Source of the DNA: a virus
DNA: 25,189 nt
Strand: one strand, 5' to 3'
IMG/VR virus record: IMGVR_UViG_3300020163_000017
Span: 1 to 25,189 of that record
Part shown: in pieces, positions 1 to 22,236 of the stretch
How the letters are laid out: every line of letters starts with the position of its first letter
Numbering within the stretch: the stretch's first letter is position 1
Notes under the pieces: generated by a model
What the model was told of the DNA's origin: nothing
Seen by the model: only the letters and a program-made list of their open reading frames with translations
The model's database searches: none
Position numbers and translations under genes: made by a program

Positions 1-105
1 AGTTAATAATGTATCTACTAAACCAATTAGTTTATTTGACGAGGTTTCTGTCATACCTTCTCTTGCAATTAGATTCATTAATGATAATATCATTTCATTT
101 AGCAT
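1..105 (-). CDS. Unidentified small protein, cut by the window edge
   Basis: An open frame starts at the ATG at 105-103, overlaps the last 11 bases of the radical SAM gene upstream, and stays open for 35 codons to the edge of the window. The visible part begins MLNEMILSLMNLIAREG and ends GLVDTLLT; it looks helical and leucine-rich with few charged residues. The overlap suggests translational coupling to the enzyme gene. The ribosome binding site is weak (AAAGAGTGA), and a second in-frame ATG lies at 93-91. I do not recognise the family. It could be a further member of the radical SAM cassette or simply the next phage gene (lysis genes often follow fibre genes), but nothing here decides this. 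Confidence 0.55.
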   Translation of the reverse strand, partial: MLNEMILSLMNLIAREGMTETSSNKLIGLVDTLLT

Positions 106-1480
106 TTTGCATCACTCTTTCTTTTTGAACTCTGTCAACCTGAAGTAAGATTTGTTGGCACATAATATACCGAAAATCACTTGAGGATATTTTTGACATA
201 TATTCAAAAACTCCAAGTCCTACGTACACATCTATAAGATGGTTATATTTGGTTTTAAACATATTACAAACTATTGGATCTGGCATAAATGCATCTTCCG
301 TATTCTCGTACTGTTCTCCAAAACAACCCCTGAGACAAAATCCATTGTATTGACAGACGTCACAACCATGGTGAGAAGTCAAATTATTACTGAAATAAAT
401 TTTGGATGCGAACGCCGTATTATTAGCATTAACTCCAATTATTTTTCCATTTTCTAATTCAAACTTCCCATAAATATACTGTGGATAGGCCGTCCTATGA
501 CATGGGACCAATGATAAATCCCCAACACGAACGAAAAGACAACTGGGTATTGTACATCCAGCTTGAGTCTTAGCCATCGGCATGGCAATATTAATATAAC
601 CATTTGACGGCTCATCTCCACCTATACAGAATACCTTTGCAAGAAAGTTATCAAAATTATGTTTTGCCTCTTCCCAAAAACCAACTATTTGATGAGTATA
701 ATATTTCTTTAGATACTCAAGTTTTTCATCTGTCCAATCTGGATTTCTTACTTCCAACATCATAATAGCATCTGGAAATTTCATGTCATACTTTACACAC
801 ATTTCCTTAAACCAATCATAGTTATCGTTCCATTTTTCAATTGCAACAGCAGAAACCATCGGATGAAAAAAGAAATTATTCTTCTTTGCAAATATAAAGA
901 GGCGATCATAAAATGATTGATCTCTTATTGTAGTTGTCGATTTCATCGGCCTACTTATATCTTCCAAAAATATACCATCGACAGAATGAGAAATAATTAG
1001 TGAAGTGCCGCATTCTTTAAAAGAATCTACAAAATATTGCATTTGATTTAGTGTGGCATCTTCCAAAATAAATGTTGAATTTGTAGGAAGTGAAATGGCT
1101 CTTAGCCTCAACCCTTTTCTCGTATATGATAGAATCGTCTCGAGAATTTTTATTCCATATGGAAGGTGCCAAATTTCACCAGAGAACAATGATAATTCAT
1201 TTACATAAAAATCATTCTCTAACCACCAGTCGAATATTTTTAACAAATTTTCATAAATGAGTTCTTCTTTTCTGAATTCTTTTGGATAAAGTTGATCACC
1301 TCTTGTATTCAAATAACAGTATTCACATTTAAGATTACATTCAGAAGTAATATAAAGTTCTAAATTTGACAGTTCCCATAGTTTATTTCCTTCTGAATTT
1401 TTCCAAATTGAAAAGAATCTTTTATCAAGTATTACTTTTAGGAGTTCATCTTCTTCCATTTGATAAGTAGATCTGTTCAT
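95..1480 (-). CDS. Radical SAM/SPASM maturase with complete auxiliary-cluster cysteines
   Basis: 461-residue radical SAM enzyme. The [4Fe-4S]-SAM motif CNLKCEYC is at residues 48-55 (CxxxCxxC) and is followed by Tyr56. An S-G-E at 100-102 stands where the family has its GGE motif. The C-terminus has a near-canonical SPASM pattern: C309, C314 and C327, then C373-x2-C376-x5-C382-x3-C386, then C405. SPASM proteins carry two extra iron-sulphur clusters and usually modify ribosomally made peptides or proteins. About 45 residues before the first motif could help bind the substrate, but no clear RRE fold can be called by eye. I chose the ATG at 1480 because GGAGG lies five bases in front of it; the upstream ATG at 1498 would place that site inside the gene. 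It lies 19 bases after the other radical SAM gene. The expected substrate is the repeat protein at 2859-3899 (inference). Confidence 0.9.
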   Translation of the reverse strand: MNRSTYQMEEDELLKVILDKRFFSIWKNSEGNKLWELSNLELYITSECNLKCEYCYLNTRGDQLYPKEFRKEELIYENLLKIFDWWLENDFYVNELSLFSGEIWHLPYGIKILETILSYTRKGLRLRAISLPTNSTFILEDATLNQMQYFVDSFKECGTSLIISHSVDGIFLEDISRPMKSTTTIRDQSFYDRLFIFAKKNNFFFHPMVSAVAIEKWNDNYDWFKEMCVKYDMKFPDAIMMLEVRNPDWTDEKLEYLKKYYTHQIVGFWEEAKHNFDNFLAKVFCIGGDEPSNGYINIAMPMAKTQAGCTIPSCLFVRVGDLSLVPCHRTAYPQYIYGKFELENGKIIGVNANNTAFASKIYFSNNLTSHHGCDVCQYNGFCLRGCFGEQYENTEDAFMPDPIVCNMFKTKYNHLIDVYVGLGVFEYMSKISSSDFRYIMCQQILLQVDRVQKERVMQNAK

Positions 1481-1499
1481 TTTTTCCTCCACGGGCATA

Positions 1500-2843
1500 C
1501 TACTTGACCCAATTTATTGAATTTTTATCCTCCAACAACTGATGGGCACCGTTAAATAAAAACTTCAACATTCCATTATGGATCATAGTTAGAGATCCTG
1601 TTGTCGCATGGTTATCCCTTACACAAAAAGCAGTATGACTTTGATAAAAGATAGCAGCTTTTATTGCCTCTACGTCATCTTTATATAAGGGCAGTACCTG
1701 ACCGGCATGTGCTAACAACACTAATTGAGTAGCAATAGTAGCAACCCTTGCAGATGTACCCTCACAATTAAAACAAGCCATTTGATTTTCATATTTATTA
1801 TAATCATTTTTATGAAAAATCATACGGTGTTTTTGTTCTGAGAGAAATATCTTTGCATCAATTGTGGATCTACCATCGTTAGCATTCGCAAATTTTTTAT
1901 AGTTTGAAACAATATCAACGAATCCATTATGGCATGACGAAACCATTTCATTTGGTAGAAACCCAATAGTTGTATATCCAGTCCCACAAGTAAAATTCTT
2001 ATGTTTCAGAGTAAGATTAACATCACCCATTGCGCCATTAGAAAACGGTGTAATATTCTTATAATATAATAAATATCGTCCAATATCTTTTTCGATCATT
2101 CTTGTTGTTTGACAAAGATTTGCAAAAAATATCCCGTCTTCCTTTGTTGCCAGAGAAGGACATGCCAAATTCGGAATTCCTTCTCCTATAGATATATTAC
2201 TGCGATTTAGTTTTCGTAGACGATCTATAAGTTTATCAAAGATCATATAATACTCGATTATCGCATTTTTTGAATTAAGCATTCTCACCGTATTAATATC
2301 TAATGTTGGTTTAAATTGAATTAAAAGATTCACATTTGGCGGAAGAATTTCAGTAAGTAATCCTAACATCTTTTCATAATTATCCAAAATTTTGTTAGTT
2401 GTTCCATTTCCTCTTGTCATATCTGTAAATTCTTCTGGACCATCCAAAGAGACTTGAAGACAGTAGTTAAAAATTCTTCTTGGAAAATGCCCAAATATTT
2501 TCATTAAACCGAAGAACTGTTCATTCCATTGGTCAAAAGCCATATTTGTAGAAGCGAAGAAACCAGCAAGATTTGGATATTTTGGAATAATTCTTTCCAG
2601 AGTATTGTAAATTCTGTCCATTCTTAGAAATGGTTCTCCGCCCCAAGTCTCCAAAGTTTTCAATTGGTTCGGGTCGGGAAACATTTCTAATATAAACTTT
2701 TCATAATAATCTCCCTTAAAACTTTCATCTAGAATGTTATCTATTTCCACCAACGCCTTATTTTTATCGATATAACAATAAACACAATTAAGATTACAAG
2801 TTGCTGTTGTATATAGAACTACAGTCTCCCGATTTTCAATCAT
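1500..2843 (-). CDS. Radical SAM enzyme with reduced SPASM/twitch-like C-terminus
   Basis: 447-residue radical SAM enzyme. The motif CNLNCVYC is at residues 16-23 and W-G-G-E-P at 67-71; both are textbook positions for binding the iron-sulphur cluster and SAM. The motif is almost at the N-terminus, so there is no N-terminal recognition domain. The C-terminal cysteines are fewer than in the neighbouring enzyme: C286, C304, C357-x2-C360 and C407. The run C-x2-C-x5-C-x3-C is not present, so it may hold one auxiliary cluster or a degenerate SPASM domain. It starts 15 bases after the repeat protein's stop with a G-rich site (GAGAGGGG) and ends just before the second radical SAM gene, so the three genes look like one operon unit. 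The two enzymes differ enough that I expect different reactions or a division of labour on one substrate. Confidence 0.9.
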   Translation of the reverse strand: MIENRETVVLYTTATCNLNCVYCYIDKNKALVEIDNILDESFKGDYYEKFILEMFPDPNQLKTLETWGGEPFLRMDRIYNTLERIIPKYPNLAGFFASTNMAFDQWNEQFFGLMKIFGHFPRRIFNYCLQVSLDGPEEFTDMTRGNGTTNKILDNYEKMLGLLTEILPPNVNLLIQFKPTLDINTVRMLNSKNAIIEYYMIFDKLIDRLRKLNRSNISIGEGIPNLACPSLATKEDGIFFANLCQTTRMIEKDIGRYLLYYKNITPFSNGAMGDVNLTLKHKNFTCGTGYTTIGFLPNEMVSSCHNGFVDIVSNYKKFANANDGRSTIDAKIFLSEQKHRMIFHKNDYNKYENQMACFNCEGTSARVATIATQLVLLAHAGQVLPLYKDDVEAIKAAIFYQSHTAFCVRDNHATTGSLTMIHNGMLKFLFNGAHQLLEDKNSINWVK

Positions 2844-2858
2844 TTTAAGGGCCCCTCT

Positions 2859-3899
2859 CTAGTTTGTTTTTGAAGCATTCGAATTTCCAACATCTACTAC
2901 AGTAGTATTAGATTTCAGAGTATTACTATTAATTCCATTTCCATAAGAAACATTCGAATTTGTTCCATTTGGGCATGTTCCATTTGGGCATACCCCATTA
3001 GAATAATTACCGTTACCGCACGCACCATAACCATTTGAACCATAACTATTAGTACCATTGGTACATGCTCCGTTACTATGATAATCGTTACTTAATGCGC
3101 CGTTACTACATGTTCCATTACTATGATAACCGTTACTCATTCCGACATTTGACTGTGTTCCGTTAGGATTTGTTCCATTACTATTTGTAGTATTACTCTT
3201 TGTACCGTTACTCTTTGTACCGTTACTCTTAGTCCCTAATAAATTTACGCCATTGCTATTTGTCCCATTGGAATTAGTTAGATTTAAATGTGTTCCATTA
3301 CTACATATTCCATTACTACATGCACCATTAGAATTTGTTCCGTTGGAATTAAATAGATTGGTTTTATTTGTATGTGAGTTTGTTCCGTTGGAATTAAATA
3401 GATTGGTTTTATTTGTATGTGTGTTTGTTCCGTTGGTACATGCTCCATTAGAACAAGCCCCGTTTGTATTTGTACTATACGTCTGTAAGGTTAGACTCAT
3501 AGTACCCTGACTGCACGTTCCATTATTACAAGTACCATTAGGATGGCTTCCATTAGTATTAGTCCCATTTGTATTTAAACCATAAGCATTTGTCGCATTA
3601 TTTCTACATATAATTGTTGCATCTACAGAATTAAGTGTATTCTGAAAGGCTGTCTTTTGACTCGCCAAAGTTTTAACTCCAGTGGTAACTCCACTAACGT
3701 CGGAATATGTAGCATATTGGAAATATGTATCAACACTCATCGTGGCAAATTCAGATTTTAGTGTACTCACATCGGCGATCAAGGTAGGATTACCCGGTGT
3801 AATAGTAGGCGCAGTAATTGTACCCAAGCCAAGTCTCACGCGAGAGGCATTTAGTTGGGTATACCACGCATCAATATCTGTTTTTAATATATTTGCCAA
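2859..3899 (-). CDS. Asn-Gly pentad-repeat protein, likely radical SAM substrate and virion-associated
   Basis: 346 residues. Residues 1-105 form a non-repetitive, probably helical domain containing one cysteine (C98). Residues 106-345 are 48 consecutive five-residue units in unbroken register, consensus N-G-[T/A/x]-x-[S/T/P], followed by a final Asn. Eleven cysteines occupy only the fourth unit position (124, 129, 149, 154, 194, 199, 264, 279, 294, 304, 309), ten of them as N-G-x-C. Units such as SNGTN resemble pentapeptide repeats (A-[DN]-[LF]-[ST]-x) but with Gly where the core Leu/Phe should be. Translation starts at TTG (3899), set by AGGAGG seven bases upstream. The gene lies between a fibre-like gene and two radical SAM genes, which suggests a tail-fibre or surface protein that is modified after translation. 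I do not recognise a named family; the modification is inference. Confidence 0.85.
   Translation of the reverse strand: MANILKTDIDAWYTQLNASRVRLGLGTITAPTITPGNPTLIADVSTLKSEFATMSVDTYFQYATYSDVSGVTTGVKTLASQKTAFQNTLNSVDATIICRNNATNAYGLNTNGTNTNGSHPNGTCNNGTCSQGTMSLTLQTYSTNTNGACSNGACTNGTNTHTNKTNLFNSNGTNSHTNKTNLFNSNGTNSNGACSNGICSNGTHLNLTNSNGTNSNGVNLLGTKSNGTKSNGTKSNTTNSNGTNPNGTQSNVGMSNGYHSNGTCSNGALSNDYHSNGACTNGTNSYGSNGYGACGNGNYSNGVCPNGTCPNGTNSNVSYGNGINSNTLKSNTTVVDVGNSNASKTN
3193..3230 (-). repeat. 15-bp direct repeat, two full copies and a partial third
   Basis: The 15-base unit ttactctttgtaccg occurs at 3193-3207 and 3208-3222, and eight bases of a third copy follow. It encodes successive T-K-S-N-G pentads. 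One pentad equals one repeat unit, so this is expansion by single units. Confidence 0.85.
3334..3421 (-). repeat. Two near-exact 45-bp copies inside the pentad array
   Basis: Bases 3334-3376 and 3379-3421 are identical over 43 bases and are offset by 45 bases. The unit is 15 residues (HTNKTNLFNSNGTNS), i.e. three pentads, so the duplication keeps both the frame and the five-residue register. This indicates recent slippage or unequal recombination within the array. Confidence 0.9.
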
Positions 3900-3911
3900 G
3901 ATTATTCCTCC

Positions 3912-4109
3912 TTACCCCCAAACTCCGACGATACTAACCCAAGCCGAACCGTTCCAATAACTCGCCACACTTGTTGTAGAATTTATCCATAAAACAGAAG
4001 TATTTCCTGTAGGTGCGCTAGATTGTATTGCAATAGTTGTTGGATTCAAATTTCCAGCATGCCAAACTGTATTATCATTAAATTTTAACTCGATCCCGAA
4101 AATCTTCAT
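3912..4109 (-). CDS. Small tail-fibre-like protein
   Basis: 65 residues starting MKIFGIELKFND. It holds a V-W-H-A-G-N motif near residue 20, followed by a segment with SAPTG, VLWINSTTSVASYWNG and SAWV; both pieces are common in phage tail-fibre and receptor-binding proteins, so a fibre tip, chaperone or decoration role is likely. The ATG at 4109 is chosen because GGAGGTG lies seven bases ahead; the upstream GTG at 4118 overlaps that site. The gene follows the 384-residue fibre gene and precedes the repeat protein. Its ribosome binding site is partly inside a hairpin (4119-4134). The exact function is unknown. Confidence 0.7.
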   Translation of the reverse strand: MKIFGIELKFNDNTVWHAGNLNPTTIAIQSSAPTGNTSVLWINSTTSVASYWNGSAWVSIVGVWG

Positions 4110-4118
4110 TATTTGCAC

Positions 4119-4134
4119 CTCCAGAAAACTGGAG
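4119..4134 (-). promoter_or_regulatory. Hairpin overlapping the ribosome binding site of the 65-residue gene
   Basis: On the transcript the sequence CTCCAGTTTTCTGGAG forms a perfect 6-bp stem with a TTTT loop. The 3' arm includes GGAG of the Shine-Dalgarno site GGAGG (4122-4118) that serves the ATG at 4109. Folding would hide the site, so translation of this gene could be tuned. The structure is read directly; the regulatory effect is inference. Confidence 0.5.
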
Positions 4135-4177: not shown

Positions 4178-5332
4178 TTACCCAATAATGGTAACAGTGT
4201 AGAGATCAGCTGTTGGAGCAGTTGCAAAAGTAACAGTTAATGTATTAACTGTTGTGAATTCGATGTCGGCATAGACTTCTCCGTACGGAGAACCGGTTTG
4301 ACGTATCATAACAATAAGATCTCTGGAATTCAGATTATGGGTAATAACATAAGACGTAGCTGCTCCATCTCCCATGGCCGCAGTAACTTTAGATGCTACT
4401 TGTGTAGTAATCAATGTTCCCGTGACCGCGCCCTGAGTGACCTGCCATTTTCCAGTACTATTATTAAAGGTCAATAAGGCATCTTTACGAGTTGCGTTAT
4501 CTGCCATCAACCTTTTAATAGCTAGACCACCATCAGAATTTGCAGCACTAGTCGTGATGTCGGAATTCAACAGTATTTCAGAGTCGCCAATATTAACTTC
4601 ATTAGAGTTAATTGTGGTTGCGGTGCCTTCCACAACAAGGTTCTTTACTCTAATATCAGCATAGTCAGTATCGCCATTGTTACGCATCTGTATTTCGCCA
4701 GAAGAATTCTTTACTTTCGGCCCACTAGTGCCAATTATAAATGTGTTGCTGGAGGTTCCAGTATCAGTGTTCTGCGTATGCGACGCTGCATCGGCATGAA
4801 CGTGATCTCTACGGGCTGCTGTCATCGCCGTACCAGGACTTGCCGACCCAATTGCTGCTGGATTGGTGGCATCAAACAACGGCTTGTTTGTAATAGCAGT
4901 TTCGCCATTTGCAATTCCAAGAACATTCATTAATCCAGCTGCAGGAGCCACGGCTTTAGGTGCAAGACCATGTGCAGTAGTTGACGTGTCAAGAGTTGTA
5001 ACATCCGTAGTAGCTCCTAACGCTTCGAGCGAAGGAGTAGTGATGGCGTGTTTATGATCCGATCTTGCAGCAGTAGCCGCCGAACCATTATTAACACTAC
5101 CACCAACAGTTTCGGCAGTACTACCAATGTTTGCCACAGCCAGTTGCGAAGCGTCGGCCGCGTCCATACCCACCCAACCAGTGCCATTAAACTTGAACGC
5201 ACGATGAGATGTGGTGTTGTAATATATTTGTCCTTCTACTGGAGCAGGACTCGTAGGTGCAGCTGCCAGTTTCTGTATCAGAACATTCAAGAGTTGATTA
5301 TAGTTCATGTCCAAATTTGTTAAATGTTTCAT
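4178..5332 (-). CDS. Tail fibre protein with HxH motifs
   Basis: 384 residues, start ATG 5332 with GGAGG five bases ahead. Residues ~1-55 form a fibre-type N-terminus containing VEGQIYYNTTSHRAFKFNGT, a segment frequent in phage fibres. R-S-D-H-K-H (near residue 93) and R-R-D-H-V-H (near residue 175) are HxH motifs of the kind that bind iron along trimeric fibre shafts such as T4 gp37. A repetitive, Ala/Thr-rich shaft follows, then a C-terminal beta-rich domain (THNLNSRDLIVMIRQTGSPY onward) of a type often seen at fibre ends. It probably forms a trimeric fibre at the tail tip that contacts the host surface. Host specificity cannot be read from the sequence. Confidence 0.85.
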   Translation of the reverse strand: MKHLTNLDMNYNQLLNVLIQKLAAAPTSPAPVEGQIYYNTTSHRAFKFNGTGWVGMDAADASQLAVANIGSTAETVGGSVNNGSAATAARSDHKHAITTPSLEALGATTDVTTLDTSTTAHGLAPKAVAPAAGLMNVLGIANGETAITNKPLFDATNPAAIGSASPGTAMTAARRDHVHADAASHTQNTDTGTSSNTFIIGTSGPKVKNSSGEIQMRNNGDTDYADIRVKNLVVEGTATTINSNEVNIGDSEILLNSDITTSAANSDGGLAIKRLMADNATRKDALLTFNNSTGKWQVTQGAVTGTLITTQVASKVTAAMGDGAATSYVITHNLNSRDLIVMIRQTGSPYGEVYADIEFTTVNTLTVTFATAPTADLYTVTIIG

Positions 5333-5983: not shown

Positions 5984-6114
5984 ATCATTCACCTCCTCCT
6001 TATGGCCCACCAACTGCGTGCCATAAGTAGTCTCCACGTTTATGTGGTTGTAACGCCTGTACTACATCTGACATATCATTCACCTCCTCCTTATGGCCCA
6101 CCAACTGCGTGCCA
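5934..6114 (-). repeat. Perfect 90-bp tandem duplication across a gene boundary
   Basis: Bases 5934-6023 and 6025-6114 are identical and are offset by 91 bases. Each copy holds the last codons of the fibre protein, its stop, the ribosome binding site and the first 16 codons of the next gene. Both neighbours remain intact: the right copy ends the fibre gene and the left copy starts the small gene. A real recent duplication and a short-read assembly error are both possible. Confidence 0.9.
6000..6074 (-). pseudogene. 24-residue remnant ORF made by the 91-bp duplication
   Basis: This ATG has a full copy of the GGAGGAGGT ribosome binding site. It encodes the same first 16 residues as the downstream gene, then switches to LWHAVGGP, the tail of the upstream fibre protein, and stops. 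If the duplication is real the peptide would be translated, but it probably has no function of its own. Confidence 0.6.
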
Positions 6115-7527
6115 ATAAATTGTGCCTGTTGGTTTATACCCATTTTCCCAAGTTAAGGTAAACCCAGAAGCATTAGGTGCATAAGTCACATGCCCGTATT
6201 CAGTAGGCGGTACCCCCCAACCTGTTGACCGCCATTGATGAAGACCATTTAAAGCTTCAATAAAAAATATAGCCGACCAATCTTGGCCTAGGATATTATC
6301 TCTCATTATTGACCAAGCTAAACCCCCAGTTATACTCCCACCAACCATTATCAGTGTGGGCCGAAAAGCCATTCCCGTAACCGTTAATACATTTCCTATA
6401 CTAGCTGGGTTTACATTTCCGTTAGCGTATCCTACTTTACCCGTACCATCTGGTAATGTTCCAGTTATACCGGCAATGACAACCCCACTTTTAATATTTC
6501 CAGCAGATAAGTTTGACAGATCTTTTGTGCCAGTAATTTTTGTCAAAGGGTCATTACTATATCCGGTCTTTCCAGCAAGTAAATCGCCAGCAACCATGTC
6601 GCCAGTTAGTGTCTCACCTCCTTCACCCAACAATTGAAAAGACGATGTACTTGCGTTGTAGCGAAGACCAACAATACAACTTAAAGGCATTTTTCCTGCT
6701 GTTAATGCGGCCCCTTTTGCATCTACAATAGCTTTTACACCAAGTCCACTCCAATTAAAAGTTGATGCGCCCGTATTAGCAGCAATGACATTATCCAAAT
6801 ATACGGACATACCGTCCACTAATGATGTTGCTGACATGGCGCTGAATGTGTAAGCATCAACGACTCCAGTTGCTGGACCGAATGCAGGATTACGCACATA
6901 ATCAGCAATATGATCATCGATTAAATTTAACAAATTTCCTGCTGTATTTTCGTCCAAAATATCAGCAAGTGTGTCCATCCAACTATGAAATTCACTATCC
7001 CACTGAGTAAGTAAATCAGAAATATCAACAGTTTCAAGAATTCCTGTAATGAACGGACAGTCAATCGTTCCAATCTTATTCGTAATATTAGCAGTAATAA
7101 TTGAAGTAACTCCAGCCCCAACATAAATATGAGCCAATGGATACTGATGAACAAACTCAGTATTAACAAGTGTTGGAGCTATAGGCGAACTACCAGGAGT
7201 TCCTTTAATTACTTTAATGGTATTGGCACGAATTTCTTCACTCATATCAGTTTCCAAAACTACCATATCAATACGATTAAGAACCGATTCAGATGCAGCG
7301 ATAACTAATACTAACGCCCCGTCATTATTTGTCCATGTCTTGTTGAACCAGGCTCGTCCAGAACCAACAATAACATTCATTCCCGTTGATGCAATAACAA
7401 CCAATGCGTCCCCAATCGACATGAAGACTCCATCATTAATTATTCCATCAAATAAAGAGGATAACTGCGTGGCACTATATGCACGATCGCCACCTATTGA
7501 GTCATAAAAACCATATGTTACACCCAT
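6091..7527 (-). CDS. Tail-tip structural / receptor-binding protein
   Basis: 478 residues starting MGVTYGFYDSIGGDRAYSAT. The N-terminal ~190 residues (GDRAYSATQLSSLFDGII, VIASTGMNVIVGSGRAW, SVLNRIDMVVLETD, ASSPIAPT-like GTPGSSPIAPT, PLAHIYVGAGVTSI) match a phage structural domain common in Bacillota siphoviruses just after the tail-tip gene. The middle holds repeated glycine-rich strands, and the C-terminus (WSIMRDNILGQDWSAIFFIE to WHAVGGP) looks like a receptor-binding head. The ATG at 7527 is chosen over TTG 7545 because AAGGAG lies directly ahead of it. It starts 10 bases after the Gp37-like gene's stop. It is likely the attachment base or shaft of the host-recognition apparatus. Confidence 0.8.
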   Translation of the reverse strand: MGVTYGFYDSIGGDRAYSATQLSSLFDGIINDGVFMSIGDALVVIASTGMNVIVGSGRAWFNKTWTNNDGALVLVIAASESVLNRIDMVVLETDMSEEIRANTIKVIKGTPGSSPIAPTLVNTEFVHQYPLAHIYVGAGVTSIITANITNKIGTIDCPFITGILETVDISDLLTQWDSEFHSWMDTLADILDENTAGNLLNLIDDHIADYVRNPAFGPATGVVDAYTFSAMSATSLVDGMSVYLDNVIAANTGASTFNWSGLGVKAIVDAKGAALTAGKMPLSCIVGLRYNASTSSFQLLGEGGETLTGDMVAGDLLAGKTGYSNDPLTKITGTKDLSNLSAGNIKSGVVIAGITGTLPDGTGKVGYANGNVNPASIGNVLTVTGMAFRPTLIMVGGSITGGLAWSIMRDNILGQDWSAIFFIEALNGLHQWRSTGWGVPPTEYGHVTYAPNASGFTLTWENGYKPTGTIYWHAVGGP

Positions 7528-7537
7528 GTGAATCTCC

Positions 7538-8593
7538 TTACTCAATCATGGTGAATGTTGGATACACATCCACGCTAGATAAACTCTGTGAATAGATAAT
7601 TTCAGTAACTCGAGACTTTGCTTCCATACCATACTCATTTGCTATCTGGACAATATCACCCATGAAGAATGATTCACCAAATGTATACATAACTTTAGGA
7701 TCTATCTGTCCGTCAAATGTTTGAGCGAGAATATGGTTTGTTAAGTCCTCGGTCCCACGTTGCGCTAACTGTAAAAGGTAATCCGCTTCAAGCATCTCGT
7801 TTCCGTCAACTGTCTGAGAAAGGTCTCGTGCATCCGTATACATCTCTCTACGTGTAAGGTTTGCTGCCATACCGACAACTGTTGTTATTCGGTCCGGTCC
7901 TTCACCCTCACCAGCAACAAGAGTAACAGTCTTTACTGTCTTCTTACTCTCTGTATAGTTACTGTTTATGAGATTCTCATAGTATGGTGAGAATATAACG
8001 TACGGATTCACAAATTGATCATATGACCGATCGGCCCCTGCGTATAACTTGAATACAAACTGGTCGTCCTCAAGAGTTACTTGAAATCCGATATTATTTG
8101 CAGCACAGAGACCTTTAATACTATCATACAAGTTTGTCCACGTGAACTGTGCATCAACGGTTAGGGTTGTAACAAGGGGATCGGTCGAGGCCTCAAATAT
8201 AAAGTTATCAATTGTTCGATCTGATATTACTGGTGAAATAACATTTTCATTAAGTAACTTTTCTATCCCATCCTGTAGGTTACCGGTTAGTACAGTTTGA
8301 CCCCAAATAATACGACGATCAAGAAGTGATTCAAGCGATCTCCCTGTAACTACTAACCGGTTACCTAACTCAGAATCGGACTTAATCTGTATTCCTTCGA
8401 TTATCATTTGATGATTTGATTCTTTAAGCCAAAGATAATAGTCTTCTCTTAACCAAGTTATTAGTTCGTTTGTCGCCAATGTATAGATTTCAAACTCTCC
8501 ATTCCCACAATATCGATCTGTCCATAACAGAGATTCAAAGGTATCTACAGCAGCAACGGCTTCTAAATTAGTGTTTAAAACTAAAATGTCCAT
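7538..8593 (-). CDS. Gp37-like tail-tip protein
   Basis: 351 residues starting MDILVLNTNLEAVAAVDTFE. The opening, with SLLWTDRYCGNGEFEIYTLA, and the later YLLQLAQRGTEDL and VYPTFTMIE end are characteristic of the siphovirus ReqiPepy6 Gp37-like family, found directly after the distal tail protein. Family members are related to the tail-associated hub fold (gp27-like) and are taken to form the tip of the tail. No peptidoglycan hydrolase motif is visible. AAGGAG lies six bases before ATG 8593; the longer reading from 8677 overlaps the Dit gene and lacks such a site. The gene begins one base after the upstream stop codon, so translation is probably coupled. Confidence 0.88.
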   Translation of the reverse strand: MDILVLNTNLEAVAAVDTFESLLWTDRYCGNGEFEIYTLATNELITWLREDYYLWLKESNHQMIIEGIQIKSDSELGNRLVVTGRSLESLLDRRIIWGQTVLTGNLQDGIEKLLNENVISPVISDRTIDNFIFEASTDPLVTTLTVDAQFTWTNLYDSIKGLCAANNIGFQVTLEDDQFVFKLYAGADRSYDQFVNPYVIFSPYYENLINSNYTESKKTVKTVTLVAGEGEGPDRITTVVGMAANLTRREMYTDARDLSQTVDGNEMLEADYLLQLAQRGTEDLTNHILAQTFDGQIDPKVMYTFGESFFMGDIVQIANEYGMEAKSRVTEIIYSQSLSSVDVYPTFTMIE

Positions 8594-8594
8594 C

Positions 8595-9500
8595 TTAAAC
8601 TCCTTCGTAAACCGTTTGATTCTCCACTCTAAACTGTAGATTTGTACCTCCTGATTCAGCACTAAAGGCAAATACATTATCGCCTCTTGCTAACTGAAAC
8701 CAATCTACATTTTTATCTAAACAGTTTAGAATATTTGTATAGGTACCATCTCTGAATAATGTTATAGACTTTTGACCTTTTATTGTAGATATGAATATGT
8801 CATCTCCCATGATGATTCCAAAACCAGTCAATGTGGCTAAGCGATCGGTATCAATTTTCATAACTTCTTGTGTTCCTGAGTTGTAAATTGTTAACATGTC
8901 TACATCGCCAAGAGCATGAATTGAAATAAATACTCCAATTTCAGCATCTCCGGTATAGTAAATTGTTTGCTCTGCATTGGTAAGAATGCTGCCCATTACA
9001 AGAAGATTTTCTGATAATGACTCATTAGAAAACGGAAACTCAAATTCTGGATTAAGTCCTGAAAATATAGTTATCGTTGTTCCTTGAGAATAGAAATATG
9101 GATTAGGACAGACAATAGAAATCTGAGTGGTCTCTTCTTTGCTAAATATGTTTGGGTCATTTGATTCAACATACCCATAAATCTCGCACGTACGCGTGTC
9201 TGATTCTATAAGTAACTTAACACGCTTCTTGATTGGAAAGTACTTGTATGTGTTCTGCCGTGTAATCTCAATTGTTGGATTTTCAAGAAGTCTTATAGTA
9301 AATACAATATTTCTTCTATTAATCCTAGCTGAGTTATACACTGAACCATCGCCTGTGGATAGATCTGTCATGTTTATGTCAGCTTTACTGGGACTAAGAC
9401 CTGCGATTTCTTGAATGAGGAACCCGGATTTCTCCGGGAACCCCAATTCAAGTGCAACCGACTCATTTAAATAATTTGTAACGGTTACAGAATTAATCAT
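8595..9500 (-). CDS. Distal tail protein (SPP1 Dit-like)
   Basis: 301 residues. The N-terminus (MINSVTVTNYLNESVALEL, SGFLIQEIAGLSPSKADI, GSVYNSARINRRNIVFTI) and the following VKLLIESDTRTCEIYGYVES and ISIVCPNPYFYS segments match the Dit-like phage tail family. The C-terminal part is beta-rich and galectin-like in position. Dit forms the ring that joins the tail tube to the tip and baseplate. The start ATG overlaps the tape measure stop as ATGA, with GGTGG seven bases ahead. Its position between tape measure and Gp37-like protein fits this role. Confidence 0.88.
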   Translation of the reverse strand: MINSVTVTNYLNESVALELGFPEKSGFLIQEIAGLSPSKADINMTDLSTGDGSVYNSARINRRNIVFTIRLLENPTIEITRQNTYKYFPIKKRVKLLIESDTRTCEIYGYVESNDPNIFSKEETTQISIVCPNPYFYSQGTTITIFSGLNPEFEFPFSNESLSENLLVMGSILTNAEQTIYYTGDAEIGVFISIHALGDVDMLTIYNSGTQEVMKIDTDRLATLTGFGIIMGDDIFISTIKGQKSITLFRDGTYTNILNCLDKNVDWFQLARGDNVFAFSAESGGTNLQFRVENQTVYEGV

Positions 9501-12500
9501 GTGCCGACCACCATTCCTTTCATTGCCGAAAGTTGATTCTTTGTCTGTCGATAAATTTCAAGTCTCGACAATGCTACAGGAGAATAGTTATTCTGTGTTA
9601 AAGATATGGTTGCTCCTTGTGTGGATTGGTTATTCGACGCGTTAGTGCTATTAGTTTGTGCAGTCTGTGCTAATTCACGACTTCCATTTTGAACTGTTTC
9701 AACTGCCAACTTACTCGATGCAGTTCCAAAAAGAACTGGTGCCTTAAGCAATTTGGAAATGTCATTAGGACGAATACCACTTAGATCAATGACTGGAGTA
9801 ATTGTAAAGGACAAGTCATTTGAGTCTTCCATTTCGGCCAATGCCTGTGATACTGCTGCAATTGGTCCTCGAGCCATCTCTTCGCTTGCCTTCTCAGCTT
9901 GGTAAGCATAGTTAATGATACCATTTGCGAAACCCATGCTAACAAACTTACCAATTCCTTCAAAGACTTTACTTGGAGACTTCTCGTTAAGAGTTCCTTC
10001 TGCTGATGTAACTGCACTACGAGCAAGATAAGCAGCTGCATTTACTGCTAAATATGACCCATTACGAATACCTTGGGCAAATCCAGCAGCAGCATTTGTA
10101 CCTGCTGTAATAAACTCTGAATTGACAGCATCAAAGGAAGTTTTGATTGCAGGAACTAAGGTGCTAAGTGATGAAATTGTATTAGGTATAATGTCCTTGA
10201 GTGTTGATCCAAAGGAAGTTGTACTGTTTGTTCCACCGGTTCCAAAGGTCTTTGCGACTTCGCCAAGTTTTAAACCAGTATCTGTGTTGAGTTGTGCGAG
10301 TCTAGTTTTGTTATTTTCAATTAAATTAATAAGTTCTTTTTCAGTCAGTCCAACAATAGTTTTCATGTTTGTTTGGAAGGTGGTCTTCATTGTCGTAAGG
10401 TCTTCTGTAAGATCAGTATTAATCTTACTCAATGAAGTAGTATACACGGATTTCATGTCAGTCATTTTACCAGTTGCTTCAACAACAAGATCGTGTATAC
10501 CATCAAGCCAAGTAGTTTCTATCTCGCCAAGTTTTTTATTAAGGTCGCTTTTGATTTCAGCCAATACTTCTTCATGAGTAGTACGAATTGTACCCATATC
10601 TATTGCCATGTTACTATCAATTGTGGCCATAGAAGTGGTGAATTCAGCTTCTAAAGTAGAAAGATCAATGGCTGTTTGTGCATTGAGACCTTGAATTGCT
10701 AGAGCAGTACTATCCTTCAAACCTACAAGTTCTTCTTCTGCCTTTGTTCGTGCGAAGGAGTATTTACTCTCGAATAAACCAACATATTCTGTAAGTTGTG
10801 TGTCAGTAAGGGTAAGAAGAGCTTTAATTTGGTCCTTGGAGGTAGGTCCCATAGCCTGAAGATCTTGAATCATAGCATCACCGACGCCACGACCTGCGAG
10901 ATCTGCAAGGGATTGTTTCCATTCAGCAAGTGCTGTACTTTGACCCTGTAAATTCTTTAAAAGTTGGGCACCAGTGATCTTAGTATCGGGTTCGACTGCT
11001 GCAAACAAACCATAAGAATTGAAGATTGAATCTGCACGAGACTTGACAGCAGATTCATAGGCTTTGTTTTGAGCATCAATATCAGATAGAAGCTTTTCGT
11101 TGATTGACTTTTGATCTGTGGCATACTGTTCGCGAAGTCTTTGTCTATCTACTTCAGATCTCTCGAAAATGGAAGTAACATCCTTATTGTAACTCTCATT
11201 CTCCTTTTCGAGTTTCTTATCAGCAGCGACTTGAGCATCAAACGCATCATCAGTATGCTTTTTCATGATTTCCGCGCCTTTTTTGTCGGCGTCTTCTAGT
11301 AAGTCGGCCACGTTCTTATCATAGTCGGCTTTTAACTTGGCCTTTTCTTTAACCGCATCAGCTTCGGCCTTCTTGACACCGTCGATATATGCGATCTGAG
11401 CTTCATAGATTGTCTTAAGACGAGAATAGATTTCACGATCAATCAATTTACGTTGTTCGGAATCTTCTTTGTATTTTGCATGTAATACTTCAAGCATTTT
11501 CAATTCTTCATTGATCGTGATAGTACCGTAGAACTCTCTCTCTTCAAAAAGTGCTTTGAGTTTCTCTAGTTCAGTTTTGACAACTTTCTGAACATCTCCA
11601 AGTCCAGTCTGCATTTCATCTTTGTAGGCATCCGTTGCATCTTTTCCAGCAGCTTCAGCAGCAGCTTTAACAGCATTTGGATCAAGCAACTCCATAAGAG
11701 CCTCGATACTGGCTGTGAGCCCACCAGGGGCACCAGCAGTACTAGCTATTCCAGATATAAAACCTTTAATCGTCATGTTACCAGTATCGATGCCAAGACT
11801 ATCTGCTGCGTCGAGTACTATGGCGGTTCCATTTTGAAGTGTATCGACGATTCCTTGAGGAATTTCAAAACCAATCTTTTTCATTGCATCGACTAGTGCG
11901 GGTATTCCTGCTTTAGCTCCACTCCCCATTCCCGAGACAAAAGAACCACCTAGACGAGATCCGACCGTGCTATCTGAATGGATCCCCAATGTATTGCGAA
12001 CTGCTTCTTCGGTTGCTTTTGACATGTTAACACTGGCTTTAACAGCAGAATCAGTCTCTCCTTTGATACCTTTGGCTAGACCAAGTGTGAACCAACCACC
12101 AAGTGTTTCAAAGACTCTACTAGGAGAATTCGAGTCGGCCTCTTCACGTGCTCCAAATATAATAGCACCAACAACACTCTTAATTATTTCAACAGCAGGT
12201 GTTTTCTTTGACTCTATCCCAGCATTCAGCCCCGCGATAATGTTTTCGCCAAGTGTCTTAAACTCTTCCACATAAGAGGCGCCTTTATCTAAGACCTCTT
12301 GAAAGATTGAAGAAAGTTTATCGACAAAGGTTCTCTTCTGCGCATCAAGATTCTGGGTAGGTTCGGCAAGAATAGAGGCAACTACCGTTTGAAACGGCTT
12401 TTTATTATTTTCAAATGATAGTCTAGCATTTTCAAGAACAGTAGCGCCAAGTACTTGAAAGGATGTTGTAATGATGTCCATAGCAGCCATTGCAGGAGCG

Positions 12501-15500
12501 ACTATAGTAAAGTCAGCACCAGTTAATGTCTCAGTAAAAGCTCGAAGATCGTTCCCAAATGTATTAAGAGCAATTCCTTGATAGGCAGTTAGACTAACGG
12601 TAAACTCTGAAAATGTTTTAAGATTTGGAAGCATATCGGTATTCATCTTTTGAAGATTAGAAATAGCTAACTTAAGTTGAGTTTCATCAAGGCCCCCAAA
12701 AGTTGTAACAAGACTAGCAAGTTTTAAACCAAATGCTTCGATATCCTTTACTCCGCCAATCTTGGTACCAAGCCAACTAGCACTTGAAGGAATTTCTTGA
12801 GCAGCAAAAGCAAATGTCTTAAGATATCCTGCCATTGGTGTCATAGCCAATAGGATCGATGAAGAATGAAAAACTTGCGTAAGAGTAAGAAGTGCAAAGG
12901 CATTAACAAAAGCAACAAGTTGAGTACCAAAATCGCCAACATTTTTAGTGCCAAGGAAATCGCCAACAAACCCACCAGCCCTAGGAATAGCTTTTGCCGC
13001 TTCGGCAAATATCTTAAGGTTGTCCGCCATTGGTGCCATAGCGAAAAGAGTTACCGAAGACTTAATTGCTTGCCCAATACTAACATTTGCAAAGGCGTTA
13101 ACAAGACCAGCAAGTTGAATACCAAAATTCTCAATAGTTATGTTGTCACCAAGGAATAAACCAACAAACCCACCAGCTCTAGGAATAGCTTTTGCCGCTT
13201 CGGCAAACAGTTTAAGATTATCGATCATGGGTTTCATTGCGGTTAAAATAACAGATGCTTTGTCTGCATCATCTGTGGAAACCTTATTGATGGCCGCGAT
13301 TAACCCAGAGAGTTGTGTACCAAACGTTTCCATTGGGGATGTACCAAAATTAGTAAGTCTGCTAATACCTTCTAAAATTGAAGCGCCAGTAATAAGAACT
13401 ACTGCCTCGGCAAGATTTTTGATTCCAAGTAGAGATTCAGGAGCGAAAGAGATAGTACTAAGTGTTCTAGCAAAATTAGCAATACTTACACCAAGACGTT
13501 CAAGATTTGCTCCAATTGAACCGCCAGCCATAGCTTCAATAAAACGACCGATTCCAGCAGCAACTATTACAAGTAGATTGAGTCCTTGAGTAAGATTTTC
13601 AGCATTTGGTATTAACGCATTCATAAGTAAAGCTAATCCAACTGTTGCTAAAATGACTACTGCCATTCCAACAATTGCTATACCTATACCTTTAAGAGAA
13701 TTAACACTACCTTTGCCTAATGTTTCGAAAGACTTCCCTAGTAGCGCAATGCCACCAATAATTAAAGTTACAGCACCTAGTGCAGCAAGAAATACCGTGA
13801 GATCCTTCCAGTCAACTTGTTTAACGGTTGGAAGAACGAAACCCAAAAGACCAAATAGAGATGCTGTTAATAGAAGAATTCCACTCATCGCAATGAATCC
13901 AATTTTAAGACCGTTGAATTGTTTATCGAGTTGTATATCAGTCACTTGTTTTCCGGTATGGCCAAAGGCAATAACCAATGCACCAATCGCACTCATAGCA
14001 GTAAGAAATATCGCGAGATCTTTCCATTCAACTTGTTTAACGATTGGAAGAACGAAACCCAAAAGACCGAAGAAGGATGCTGTTGCGAGAAGAATTCCAG
14101 CCATTGCAGCAAACCCAGCTTTAAGACCGTTGAATTGTTTTTCCAATTGTTTATCAGTCAATTGTTTTCCAATATAACCAAAAGTAGCGAATAATGCAGT
14201 TATTGCACCAAGACCAATAATAAACTTACCAATATCCTCCATATTTACATTTCTAACAATAGGAAGAATTAGGGCCAAAACACCAAAGAAAGACATTGTT
14301 GAAAGAAGAACTATTCCAAATGTGGCAAATCCAGATCTAAGACCATTAAACTGTTTTTCCAGTTGTTTATCAGTAAGTTGTTTTCCGATATAACCAAAGG
14401 CAGCAAACAATACAGTTACTGCACTAAGGCCAGCAACAAATATACCAAGATCCTTCCATTCAACATCTTTAACGATTGGAAGAATTAAACCTAAAAGACC
14501 AAAGAAGGATGCTGTTAAAAGAAGAATTCCACCCATTGCGGCGAAGCCAACTTTAAGGCCGTTGAATTGTTTTTTCAGATCTGTCTTAGACATTGAGCCA
14601 ATAGCACTAGATATACTTTTCATAGCAATTGATAGGGCTACAATCGCTGCTGATGCAATTGCTAGAGATATAGTTGCTTCGCGAAGAAATCCCTGATCAA
14701 TTACACTTAGAAGAGCAAGTGACCCAGCAAGAGCAATAATAGCTATACTAACACCCATCAAAGATGAAAACATTTTTGCATTCCCACTAATGCTGGATGC
14801 CATGGCTGTAAAAAATTCGATAACACTAATTAATCCAACCATTTTGTTCAAAGTAATCATACCCTGATCAACAACGGCTTGTTTCATGTTACCAAGAATA
14901 GCAACAACTCCTGTAAATGAAAGTAGAGTAAATGTAACTGCACCAAGAATTCTTTGAACCTTTGCCCCACCGGCAATACGAGCCGAAAGAGCCGTTAATA
15001 CCTCAATACCACTAATAACGCCAGCCATCTTGGCTACATTAATAAGTCCTTGATCGATAGTTGTTTTTTTCATGTTACCAACAATGGCTATTAATCCAAC
15101 CATTGCAAGCATCCCTACTTGAATTGCAAGAATATTAGTTTGAATCTTCTTACCGCCACCTAAACGGCCAGCCAATCCCATTGTCACTTCGACGCCAGCA
15201 ATAATAAGTGTGATAAGTGCTAAATTGCTAACACTTTGAGTAATAGTGGTTTTGTCTATGAAAGAAAGAAGTTTAATTAGTCCGATCATGGACGCAATTC
15301 CAATTGCCATTCCAGCAATACTAACAGCGACTTTATTGCCGCCACTAAGACCAGCAGCAAGAGCAAAGACTGCCTGTAATGCACCAATAACAAATAAGAT
15401 TGAAGTCAGTTTACTAAGACTTGATTTAAGTTCGCCAATACCGAAAAGATTTAGAAGTTTTAAAGCACCAACAAGTGTTAGAATTGCAAAGGACATTCCA

Positions 15501-17935: not shown

Positions 17936-18303
17936 AAGCCTTGAACCTCCTTCCAGCACTCTTGTGCAATTTGATCAAATATGGGGCGAAGAGCAGGATT
18001 AATAAAATCAATACCTTCAACATATCCGCCACTTCGCGTAGCATGTCCATACTGAATCAAAAGTGCCACAGAGTAGCCGTTTTGGATGTTCGCGTTATTA
18101 AATCCAATACCCCAATTTTCAATAGTATAAGACCAACTATTGGCAGTTAGACCACTATCTTCTGGGGTCGCCGATCGAAGCGCTTCGACTCCTTGTGCGC
18201 CATATCTCTCGAACGCGGTTCTAAGCCTACGACTGAGATCTTTGCTGTTATCGAAGAATCGTTCGGCATTTTTAAAAGACCCACGTTGAGTCATTTTAAC
18301 CAT
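17932..18303 (-). CDS. HK97 gp10-like tail completion/neck protein
   Basis: 123 residues starting MVKMTQRGSF. The pattern ALRSATPEDSGLTANSW, then LIQYGHATRSGGYVEGIDFI and NPALRPIF is that of the HK97-gp10 family, small neck or tail-completion proteins. AGGAGG lies nine bases ahead of the ATG. It overlaps the tape measure start by four bases. In many siphoviruses this gene sits before the major tail protein; here it is directly in front of the tape measure, which could mean a tail-tube or tail-assembly role instead. Confidence 0.8.
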   Translation of the reverse strand: MVKMTQRGSFKNAERFFDNSKDLSRRLRTAFERYGAQGVEALRSATPEDSGLTANSWSYTIENWGIGFNNANIQNGYSVALLIQYGHATRSGGYVEGIDFINPALRPIFDQIAQECWKEVQGL

Positions 18304-19418: not shown

Positions 19419-20378
19419 TTACAGTGCTACAACCGTAAAGTTCTTCACTACTGCAGTAAGGGCCTGTCCATAAATATCTACTACGCCGCCGACAGTAACG
19501 ATGTAAGATGCAGAGTTGGTCAAAGACGCGGTCGGATCAAAAGTAAGAATCTTTCCTGTTACATCCCAGGTCTTGGCGCCAGCAACAAGAACACCAGCAT
19601 TAGATGTAACAACAACAGCTTCGCTTGCGATTTGGTTGTTGAACGTAAGAACGATGTTTGCAGTGACTGCTATGTTAGCAGCATCATCAGCAGGAACAAT
19701 GGTAGACAATGCAATAGCAGACGGGGCCCCTGTCGCAAACAAAGTAGCAATTTCATCAGGCAAAGGAAGGCGAGGAGCAAGTCCAACAGTTCCGAACAGA
19801 ATGTCTTCGAAAGTTGCCAGCGTTGTTCCATTAACCTTAGAAGAGTCGACAACCAGGTGGGCGGAGGGTTTGGCATTGGTGACAGGAACCTTGGTGGCGG
19901 TGAAATCGAAACTCAACTCTTCAAATGCGGGAGAGTCGTTAATAGTCGTATGATCGCGAGCAGAGATTCCAGCAATAGAATTGTAAACGAGATGGAGTTT
20001 GTAACCATACTCCAAACCATCTATGTCGTTAACGATCTCGGTACGGTATGCGAAACCAAACTTAGTATGAGTCTGTTGCCCAATAGAAACACCTGCAGAC
20101 AGATCGGCTTCACCAACACAGGCTTTGAAAACATCAGGATAAGTGTAGCAGCCAATGGTGCCAGCGAATTCTTCTGCAGATGTGATTTCGAGGTACTTCT
20201 GGTTGTCAGCATAGAAGGGAGTAACTTCTGCACCAGTAGGCGCTTCACCAACTGAAGTCAAACCATTCCAAGCTACACCAGCGCCATAAACACCACCCGA
20301 AAGCGGATACAGAACACCATTTTTAATACCGGTTTCGGCGAATTTTGCGCCAGTAGTATCCCAAACTAATTTAGCCAT
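19419..20378 (-). CDS. Major tail tube protein with C-terminal Ig-like domain
   Basis: 319 residues starting MAKLVWDTTGAKFAETGIKN. Residues ~1-220 have the tail tube pattern (GVLYPLSGG, WNGLTSVGEAPTGAEVTPFY, ITSAEEFAGTIGCYTYPDVF, GYKLHLVYNS, FTATKVPVTNAKPSAHLVVD). Residues ~225-319 (STIVPADDAANIAVTANIVL, VTGKILTFDPTASLTNSAS, VTVGGVVDIYG) form a SbsA/Big-type immunoglobulin-like domain, a common decoration of tail tubes that may bind host surface sugars weakly. AAGGAG lies six bases before ATG 20378. It is the most abundant tail component in such phages. Confidence 0.9.
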   Translation of the reverse strand: MAKLVWDTTGAKFAETGIKNGVLYPLSGGVYGAGVAWNGLTSVGEAPTGAEVTPFYADNQKYLEITSAEEFAGTIGCYTYPDVFKACVGEADLSAGVSIGQQTHTKFGFAYRTEIVNDIDGLEYGYKLHLVYNSIAGISARDHTTINDSPAFEELSFDFTATKVPVTNAKPSAHLVVDSSKVNGTTLATFEDILFGTVGLAPRLPLPDEIATLFATGAPSAIALSTIVPADDAANIAVTANIVLTFNNQIASEAVVVTSNAGVLVAGAKTWDVTGKILTFDPTASLTNSASYIVTVGGVVDIYGQALTAVVKNFTVVAL

Positions 20379-20391
20379 TGTTTTCTCCTTT

Positions 20392-20715
20392 TCAAAAATA
20401 TAACGTATAGACGTCATGATTTAAACCGTCTACCGCGAAGTGTGTAGAAAAAGCACAGTATGGTAGTTCCATTACTTTGTCGGGAATTAAAGAATCTGGA
20501 TTTTGATCTACGACTGTGACTAAGTATTGCTTCACACCTAAATATATGCGATCGCTCGAAAAGAAGTTTTTTCGATTGGAACGCGTATAGATAATACACG
20601 GATACTCCATCTTAGTCGCGGTTGGTGGTTGAAAGTATACACGAGATATAGTCTTATCAGTTGTTCCAAGAATGTCGATGAAAATATCGTGTAGGTCGAG
20701 TCTGTTACCTGCCAT
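20392..20715 (-). CDS. Tail terminator protein
   Basis: 107 residues starting MAGNRLDLHDIFIDILG. Size, position before the tail tube gene and the pattern VYFQPPTATKMEYPCIIYTR, GVKQYLVTVVDQNPDSLIPD and C-terminal VYTLYF match tail terminator/completion proteins (gpU-like fold) of Bacillota siphoviruses, which cap the finished tube and join it to the head. GGGGGA lies seven bases before ATG 20715; the longer frame from 20802 is buried in the upstream gene. It overlaps that gene by 11 bases. Confidence 0.8.
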   Translation of the reverse strand: MAGNRLDLHDIFIDILGTTDKTISRVYFQPPTATKMEYPCIIYTRSNRKNFFSSDRIYLGVKQYLVTVVDQNPDSLIPDKVMELPYCAFSTHFAVDGLNHDVYTLYF

Positions 20716-21069: not shown

Positions 21070-22236
21070 TTAGAGCGCATCGATGTGTTCGGTTCTCCAA
21101 TAAGCAATGGCGGAATGAGGCATGGTCAGCGCGCCAGAACAGCGAGTTTCAATCAGGTATTTATACTGATTGAAATCGATATCGAAGTCATCAAACATAG
21201 CAACGGCGCCGCCCTTGTCTGCACCAAGAGAGTAATCGGCCATATTGACAGAGATGCCGATAAGACGTTTCTGACTACCAGCAACACCTTGCTGTGCCGG
21301 AAGAGTTACAACAATTTTGTTCTCCATAACCGGAACTTCAATGATTTCGCGGGCACGAAGTCCAGCTGCCAGATCTGACTCAGTATTGTACAATCTACGA
21401 CCAGTGCTGTCTTTCAGGAGAAGCATGTCGCCATTGACATCCGGAGTGGTGAAGAAAGTGGGAGTGCCAGAACCAAGGTAGCTCTTACGACCAAGAATAA
21501 TTGCATCGATCATCTGAGCTACTGTCGCAGATTCAGCAATCGTAACTGCAACGGTGTATACACCATCGTCGGTAGCGATTGGGCGGATCTTGTCTTCCTT
21601 GATCTTGTCATCGGACATGGAGCTGCGGCCGTCACCAACAAGTTGGGCACGGGCAATTTCCTCTTCAAGCATCATGCGCATTTCAGCACGCAACCAGATG
21701 ACAACATCAAAGTCAACGATGTCAATGATGTCATCACGATCGAGTTTCTGCTTTTTGTAAACGGTCTGGGGATCGGTGGTGCGCTTCAAGAGAGTGATAA
21801 CCTCGTCCACCTTCTCGTTGCCCTTGACATAACCCCTGGCGCGAGCATCGTCAGCAGTGATGTCGGCCATGAGGGTCTTGATGCGGCTGAAAGGAATATG
21901 TTTGGCGCCGCCAAAGACTTTGGTTACCCATTCGGTATTACGTTTGATAAAGGTCGGGGTGCTGTCTGATGACCGAGCATCGGGAAAGAGATAATCGACA
22001 TTTTCCGCGATACCATAGGTGTTGACGTGCGCCAGAACGTCGTCGCGATGCTCATAAGAATCCAACGCATCGGAAATAGTCATGTAGCCGTGCGCAAGAA
22101 AGGCATTCTTAAGAGTCGACTGAGATTGACGAGCGTCAGAGAAGATTGAGCGGAGTTCATCGCGGGTCAGTGCCTCATGCTTCAACGCGTCTCCACCAGT
22201 AGCTGGGGCCGTTTTGTCAAAAATGTTTTTCTTCAT
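21070..22236 (-). CDS. Major capsid protein from an internal in-frame start
   Basis: 388 residues starting MKKNIFDKTAPATGG inside the protease-capsid frame. AAGGAG (22250-22245) lies just upstream of this ATG at good spacing, which is unexpected inside a coding region and argues for internal initiation. This would supply many capsid subunits per protease-scaffold fusion, similar in logic to nested scaffold genes such as lambda C/Nu3 but with the capsid as the inner product. Capsid features include FIKRNTEWVTKVFGGAKHIP, RARGYVKGNEKVDE, DIVDFDVVIWLRAEMRMMLE and KYLIETRCSGALT. The internal start is strongly suggested but not proven. Confidence 0.7.
   Translation of the reverse strand: MKKNIFDKTAPATGGDALKHEALTRDELRSIFSDARQSQSTLKNAFLAHGYMTISDALDSYEHRDDVLAHVNTYGIAENVDYLFPDARSSDSTPTFIKRNTEWVTKVFGGAKHIPFSRIKTLMADITADDARARGYVKGNEKVDEVITLLKRTTDPQTVYKKQKLDRDDIIDIVDFDVVIWLRAEMRMMLEEEIARAQLVGDGRSSMSDDKIKEDKIRPIATDDGVYTVAVTIAESATVAQMIDAIILGRKSYLGSGTPTFFTTPDVNGDMLLLKDSTGRRLYNTESDLAAGLRAREIIEVPVMENKIVVTLPAQQGVAGSQKRLIGISVNMADYSLGADKGGAVAMFDDFDIDFNQYKYLIETRCSGALTMPHSAIAYWRTEHIDAL

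Follow-up and report, generated by a model that had tools for sequence, protein, structure and literature searches.

What does a phage do with a long Asn-Gly repeat protein whose gene is directly followed by two radical SAM genes? The question is raised by the window analysed here, which comprises an entire 25,189-base virus record; it is a fragment and is open at least at the end where these genes lie. Our preferred answer, to which we assign a probability of about 0.72, is that the three genes belong to a phage-specific RiPP-like maturation cassette, which would modify every repeat unit of a polymer that bears a leader and is produced late in infection.

Organization of the window and the cassette

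The main genes of the window were all found on the minus strand. The repeat protein (RP), enzyme A and enzyme B are encoded, in this order, by directly consecutive ORFs at the tail-fibre end of the record. The features are as follows:

22979-24253, minus strand: portal
21070-23142, minus strand: capsid protein gene
19419-20417, minus strand: gene read as major tail protein
9497-17959, minus strand: gene read as tape measure
8595-9500, minus strand: Dit
7538-8677, minus strand: minor tail protein
6091-7545, minus strand: fibre or virion gene
4178-5332, minus strand: probable virion/fibre gene upstream of the cassette (PHROG 8309, 1e-35; 16122 virion structural protein, 3e-10; 2647 head decoration, 2e-8)
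3912-4118, minus strand: small gene with a fibre-tip-like motif at its end (LWINSTTSVASYWNGSAWVSIVGVWG; PHROG 4120 minor tail protein, E 0.0025)
2859-3899, minus strand: RP, putative substrate, 346 aa (ORF and homologous RPs)
3606-3899, minus strand: N-terminal three-helix domain of RP, leader-like, residues 1-98 (AlphaFold2 block, pLDDT 60-89)
2910-3581, minus strand: repeat region of RP, pentads [S/T]-N-G-[T/S/A]-x
2862-2909, minus strand: conserved C-terminal tail of RP (TTVVDVGNSNASKTN; alignment of RPs)
1500-2843, minus strand: radical SAM enzyme A, 447 aa
95-1498, minus strand: radical SAM/SPASM enzyme B, 467 aa as ORF
1-105, minus strand: fourth cassette gene, first 35 codons only (MLNEMILSLMNLIAREGM...), cut by the record end

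A preliminary description had placed two radical SAM genes directly after the repeat protein on the same strand, within a phage fibre region. The ORFs and Pfam models agreed with the former, and the tail, fibre and head genes upstream of the cassette with the latter. RP starts with TTG, ahead of which there is a good ribosome site (AAGGAGGAATAATC), while the true start of enzyme B is likely the ATG at 1480, behind GGAGG. Counterparts of the truncated fourth gene (the helper) are about 170-200 aa long and complete in L125, L127, L141, L142, L144 and L145; for the helper, Pfam gave nothing above cut-off and PHROG nothing at all. The final ~40 aa of the 3912-4118 gene were 44% identical to L121 and 38% to L127, and in both of these loci, too, a gene with this type of end precedes RP. 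The 21070-23142 gene encodes 690 aa and, read by eye, looks like a fusion of prohead protease and major capsid protein.

The repeat protein

RP contains 29 Asn-Gly pairs, 28 of which fall in one phase of five, and NGxx[S/T/P] occurs 25 times. The 48 N-G-x-x-[S/T/P] units counted previously were thus too many; that figure equals all pentads of the 240-aa repeat region, including numerous degenerate ones. NG-x3-NG was found 17 times compared with 0.39 in shuffled sequences (maximum 5 among 2000), which is far above chance. Since Asn-Gly is encoded by all 8 synonymous codon pairs, the protein repeat itself has been kept by selection and not by DNA copying alone. Cys makes up about 4% of the repeat region, most repeats having none, and the C-terminal end [IV]D[VTI]xN[SA] is kept in most aligned RPs of the window clade.

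In the AlphaFold2 model only residues 1-98 fold; the repeats of the unmodified chain have a pLDDT of ~26 and no predicted fold. This pattern is as expected for a leader followed by an unfolded core, and low-complexity sequence generally yields such pLDDT values too. The repeats might conceivably form a pentapeptide-repeat fold (A[D/N]LXX, Gly taking the place of Leu), although AlphaFold2 predicted no fold for them. For the leader domain, neither Foldseek nor VIA gave a convincing relative (best Z 3.9). The hardened or host-binding fibre shaft suggested earlier found no backing here beyond gene position: no fibre fold was predicted, and the N-terminal domain was absent from the other phage proteins sampled.

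Homologous loci and co-occurrence

Direct searches brought little. The window enzyme sequences had no tblastn match in 50,697 phage records, nor did a window enzyme sequence as sole query have one among viral contigs. Against phage records, tblastn with the L168 enzyme gave no match and with the L165 enzyme only remote Campylobacter phage genes, and enzyme B of L175 had no match among plasmids. The family was entered through a scan for the Asn-Gly DNA pattern, which yielded one true relative, L121, a phage whose structural genes differ but whose cassette has these three genes in identical order; an alignment with L121 then led to the remaining loci. The later profile searches, which covered viral contigs and a few Clostridia genome contigs, used the enzymes only and were blind to RP.

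About 30 distinct homologous loci were obtained in this way (near-copies counted once), nearly all of them on viral contigs, so that the three-gene neighbourhood which the preliminary description proposed to look for in phage genomes does recur. A and B were both present as a pair in 30/30 loci, wherever the flank was available; in L129 and L167 other genes, repeat proteins included, lie between them. A polar repeat protein was encoded within ~3 kb on the same strand in 30/30 loci as well. Repeats and cargo genes are abundant in phage fibre regions, and the neighbourhood might have arisen where low-complexity fibre genes and cargo came to lie side by side by chance. The counts refute this, leaving its probability practically nil: among 294 other genes from the contigs concerned, only 6 passed the same polar-repeat composition test, the same leader domain recurs in 27/30 loci, and the gene order is the same across unrelated phages. 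The leader domain was detected with two profiles, and five of the 27 loci (L156, L172, L175, L177 and L178) had not been used in profile building; the RP N-terminal profile was not found at comparable strength in ~120 other phage loci. No leader domain was detected in L145, L168 and L171. In L145 the RP lies downstream and has Asn at every fifth residue, and in L171 it consists of His-x-Ser repeats, with other genes between RP and the enzyme pair. The RP of L179 also lies downstream of the enzymes.

Enzyme genes without any repeat protein had been named as an observation that would count against the idea. There were none among the 30 distinct loci. L143, an extra copy from the same assembly as L142, retains only the RP end, behind a join to other sequence (8641-9994) that may be an assembly fault or a recombination. 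Because no enzyme locus without a repeat protein occurred among the 30, we infer with good support that the enzymes modify RP. The earlier proposal of a modified fibre protein therefore keeps its first half, modification of the repeat protein, while its fibre shaft has nothing but gene position in its favour. When bacterial genomes were searched in three groups (398, 397 and 394; ~1,190 in all) at E 1e-30, only the seed genomes matched, and the system thus belongs to phages. The carriers are a family of mostly uncultured bacterial viruses, whose enzyme pair very probably modifies RP repeatedly. According to ORF coverage, TAG is read as an amino acid (taken as Gln) in L128, L149, L151, L154, L155, L156, L165, L172 and L178, and TGA as Trp in L130.

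Enzymes A and B

Both enzymes fit radical SAM models in general (PF04055: B 3e-7, A 1.6e-4), and no known subfamily scored above its cut-off. The CxxxCxxC motif of the superfamily was found at C16/20/23 in A, invariant in 27 sequences, and at C54/58/61 in B, invariant in 26 sequences. In A the only further invariant cysteines among the 27 sequences are C286, C304 and C407. In B, C315, C333, C379, C382, C388, C392 and C411 are invariant in the 26 sequences, which places B among SPASM proteins; the TIGR04085 (SPASM) domain matched B below its cut-off. The structure model of A (mean pLDDT 86.6) was closest to CteB (VIA Z 21.9, rmsd 3.9, 325 aligned), followed by ChlB (Z 19.8), anSME (19.6) and TigE (PDB 8vpo; 17.9); viperin reached only ~11. 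Profile searches led from A to CteB, ChlB, anSME and SkfB, and from B to CteB, TigE and ChlB. The nearest structural and sequence neighbours of A and B are peptide maturases.

It could be argued that the enzymes act on some other substrate, such as another virion protein, tRNA, a nucleotide (as for viperin) or host metabolism, and that RP is an unmodified partner. There are weak matches to viperin, and the radical SAM genes of phages CP220 and CPt10 are thought to be metabolic (PMC2853527). However, the closest folds are those of peptide maturases (Z 19-22 compared with 11 for viperin), B carries the SPASM cysteines, and RP type and enzymes co-occur and co-vary by clade, as described next. We consider another substrate very unlikely.

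Repeat types, selection and exchange of the cassette

RPs of the window clade consist of pentads of the form [S/T]-[N/Y/D/Q]-G-[S/T/A]-[N/C/K]. Those of a second clade consist of tetrads of the x-Y/V/H-D-S/G kind, often with two RPs in tandem, and Ser/Thr/Cys-rich or Cys/His-rich RPs were found in L128, L152, L154, L155, L177 and L178. Loci with the same repeat period (5 or 4) group together on the trees of both enzymes: period 4 required 4 changes on the enzyme tree compared with 10.3 in shuffles, none of 500 being as low. Furthermore, the distance matrices of A and B were correlated (r 0.873; 0/5000 permutations). The cassette genes are under purifying selection, with dN/dS of 0.05-0.09 for A and B, 0.13-0.17 for the RP N-terminus and 0.15-0.21 for the helper.

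The cassette moves as a unit and is exchanged independently of the backbone. Within the flanks available for each locus, L002 has relatives (40-67% identity) of ten backbone genes of the window, from capsid to minor tail; the 17 other loci compared have none. The reverse holds for A and B, which have relatives in those 17 loci and not in L002. Apart from A and B, sharing in this comparison was confined to the N-terminus of RP and the fibre-tip end of the 3912-4118 gene. The window cassette thus occurs in unrelated phages with the same gene order.

The same genome slot of L002 holds another cassette, consisting of a PapB-like SPASM enzyme (209 bits), a repeat protein of C-x-C-x-x-R-[T/S] units and one more radical SAM enzyme. 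The slot can thus house either of two different enzyme sets, each with a repeat protein to serve. This second cassette type was located in the following tail regions:

L002, 11990-15020
L199, 5980-8972
L200, 5977-9029
L204, 5965-10239
L205, 5980-9903

Arrays of several radical SAM genes beside small proteins were also seen in L133 (5167-9768) and L134 (5497-9946). The L133 array includes a C-x-C repeat protein with a weak match (E 0.036) between its N-terminus and the RP leader profile.

Comparison with known systems

A leader and core beside tailoring enzymes, by which RiPP systems are recognised, are represented here by the leader-like domain, the repeat core and the paired maturases, with YcaO in L152, L155 and L172. 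The cassette is built of known parts, i.e. radical SAM/SPASM peptide maturases and leader-core logic, and by the models it lies outside the Hxs, PapB and viperin families. A close analogy is TvgA/TvgB, in which one radical SAM enzyme, TvgB, modifies every TVGG unit of TvgA to give cyclopropylglycine (PMC9062424). TvgB is the precedent for the once-per-repeat action that we propose for A and B. TvgA/TvgB and TigE, however, involve a bacterial cluster, one enzyme and short Val-containing repeats, whereas the phage cassette has a fixed enzyme pair, five- or four-residue repeats in which no Val is conserved, a leader domain of ~100 aa and a place in phage late regions.

The Hxs system (HxsA/HxsB/HxsC; TIGR03979, 03978, 03977) likewise pairs a repeat protein of short period with two radical SAM enzymes, and the His-x-Ser repeats of L171 gave HxsA4/HxsA model matches below cut-off. 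The window enzymes are not Hxs enzymes: A scored 29.7 (HxsB) and 17.1 bits (HxsC) against cut-offs of 370 and 268, and B was not listed. For A and B of L171, neither the HxsB nor the HxsC model matched at E 0.001. PapB/CteB-type ranthipeptide and SCIFF maturases share the fold of enzyme A and the SPASM domain of enzyme B. Assignment to the PapB ranthipeptide maturases (NF047865) was rejected, as B scored 46 and A 26 bits against 340 and RP is not Cys-rich. Viperin (pVip) was rejected as well: the matches were partial (22 and 29 bits; NCBIfam viperin 24 against 180 bits), and the window enzymes, with 447-467 aa and extra C-terminal Cys, differ from that short nucleotide-acting enzyme. Scores for the CefB and sulfatase maturase families were far below the model cut-offs.

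Radical SAM genes, 11-12 in number, are also known from Campylobacter phages CP220 and CPt10 (PMC2853527). These are phage-borne like the cassette, but the similarity is remote (20% identity), and no link to a repeat protein was found in that paper. No description of virus-encoded RiPP-type radical chemistry on a repeat protein was found in the literature searched, which omitted many subscription papers and bioRxiv; to that extent the earlier remark that no phage system of this kind had been described holds.

Genomic setting and proposed mode of action

Tail or fibre genes precede RP in several loci, and lysis genes, read by eye, follow the cassette in others. In several loci tail-fibre matches of the gene before RP were weak or missing, and the neighbours in L128, L177, L149 and L156 are not clearly fibre genes. 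A fusion of the L168 RP repeats to a fibre-like domain was checked against L173 and discarded (E 0.011, too weak). With tail-fibre genes on one side of the cassette and lysis genes on the other, the polymer is presumably made during virion assembly.

We propose that the folded, leader-like N-terminal domain of RP is the probable docking site of the enzymes, from which A and B would act as a pair along the long, unfolded and variable repeat region. The enzyme families and their co-occurrence suggest that the same small change would be installed in each pentad or tetrad. Its likeliest site would be the Ser/Thr, Asn or Gly position, these being the conserved positions in the window clade, and the likeliest product would be a crosslink or a C-alpha change. 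The modified polymer would, to judge from gene position, most likely end up outside the tail or fibre.

Alternatively, RP may be no virion polymer but a multi-core RiPP precursor, the modified repeats of which would be released by cleavage as many small diffusible peptides; these could resemble bacteriocins or target the host or co-infecting phages. A leader and repeated core with radical SAM enzymes, and sometimes YcaO, is the usual RiPP pattern, and each RP chain carries many repeats. However, no gene for a peptidase or an exporter stood out in the flanks that were inspected, the repeats are still followed by a conserved C-terminal tail, and the cassette sits between fibre and lysis genes. 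We therefore regard diffusible peptides as unlikely.

Partner genes

The virion polymer that we favour might in some loci be acted on by further enzymes. In recoded phages and others, YcaO genes (E 1e-25 to 1e-35) were found directly before RP in L152 (3772-5574) and L155 (3709-5586), and further downstream in L172 (11419-13158); in L154 a gene resembling YcaO, a candidate, precedes RP. Aldo/keto reductases with Fe-S clusters occur in L128 and L171, and glycosyltransferase genes follow in L149, L154 and L173. These partners, too, may act on RP.

On a wider reading, which we hold tentatively and at a little under even odds, phages of anaerobic bacteria would build a remodelled repeat polymer on the virion by means of radical SAM pairs, some with YcaO, aldo/keto reductase or glycosyltransferase, and the C-x-C cassette of the L002 type would do the same job. 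As the cassette varies its repeat and swaps between unrelated phages, this would therefore be a new virus-specific modification class and perhaps a new route of adsorption or protection. If so, phages would be equipped with chemistry of their own to remodel a protein made at virion assembly, for which the mass shift of a single repeat protein offers an experimental handle. The natural variation among pairs, repeats and leader domains could also be mined for new radical SAM reactions and could teach how one enzyme pair treats many sites.

Two other neighbours were observed. A shared protein of ~300 aa (IPGMWE..., NPQFCIWDGGRIF) is encoded near the pair in L175 (10626-11495), L172 (10486-11412), L178 (13271-14152) and L152 (9853-10800); the L175 copy had no Pfam match, and we take the protein to be reminiscent of U32-type proteins. 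In L129, a pantoate-beta-alanine-ligase-like gene (3252-4124) lies directly ahead of radical SAM enzyme A.
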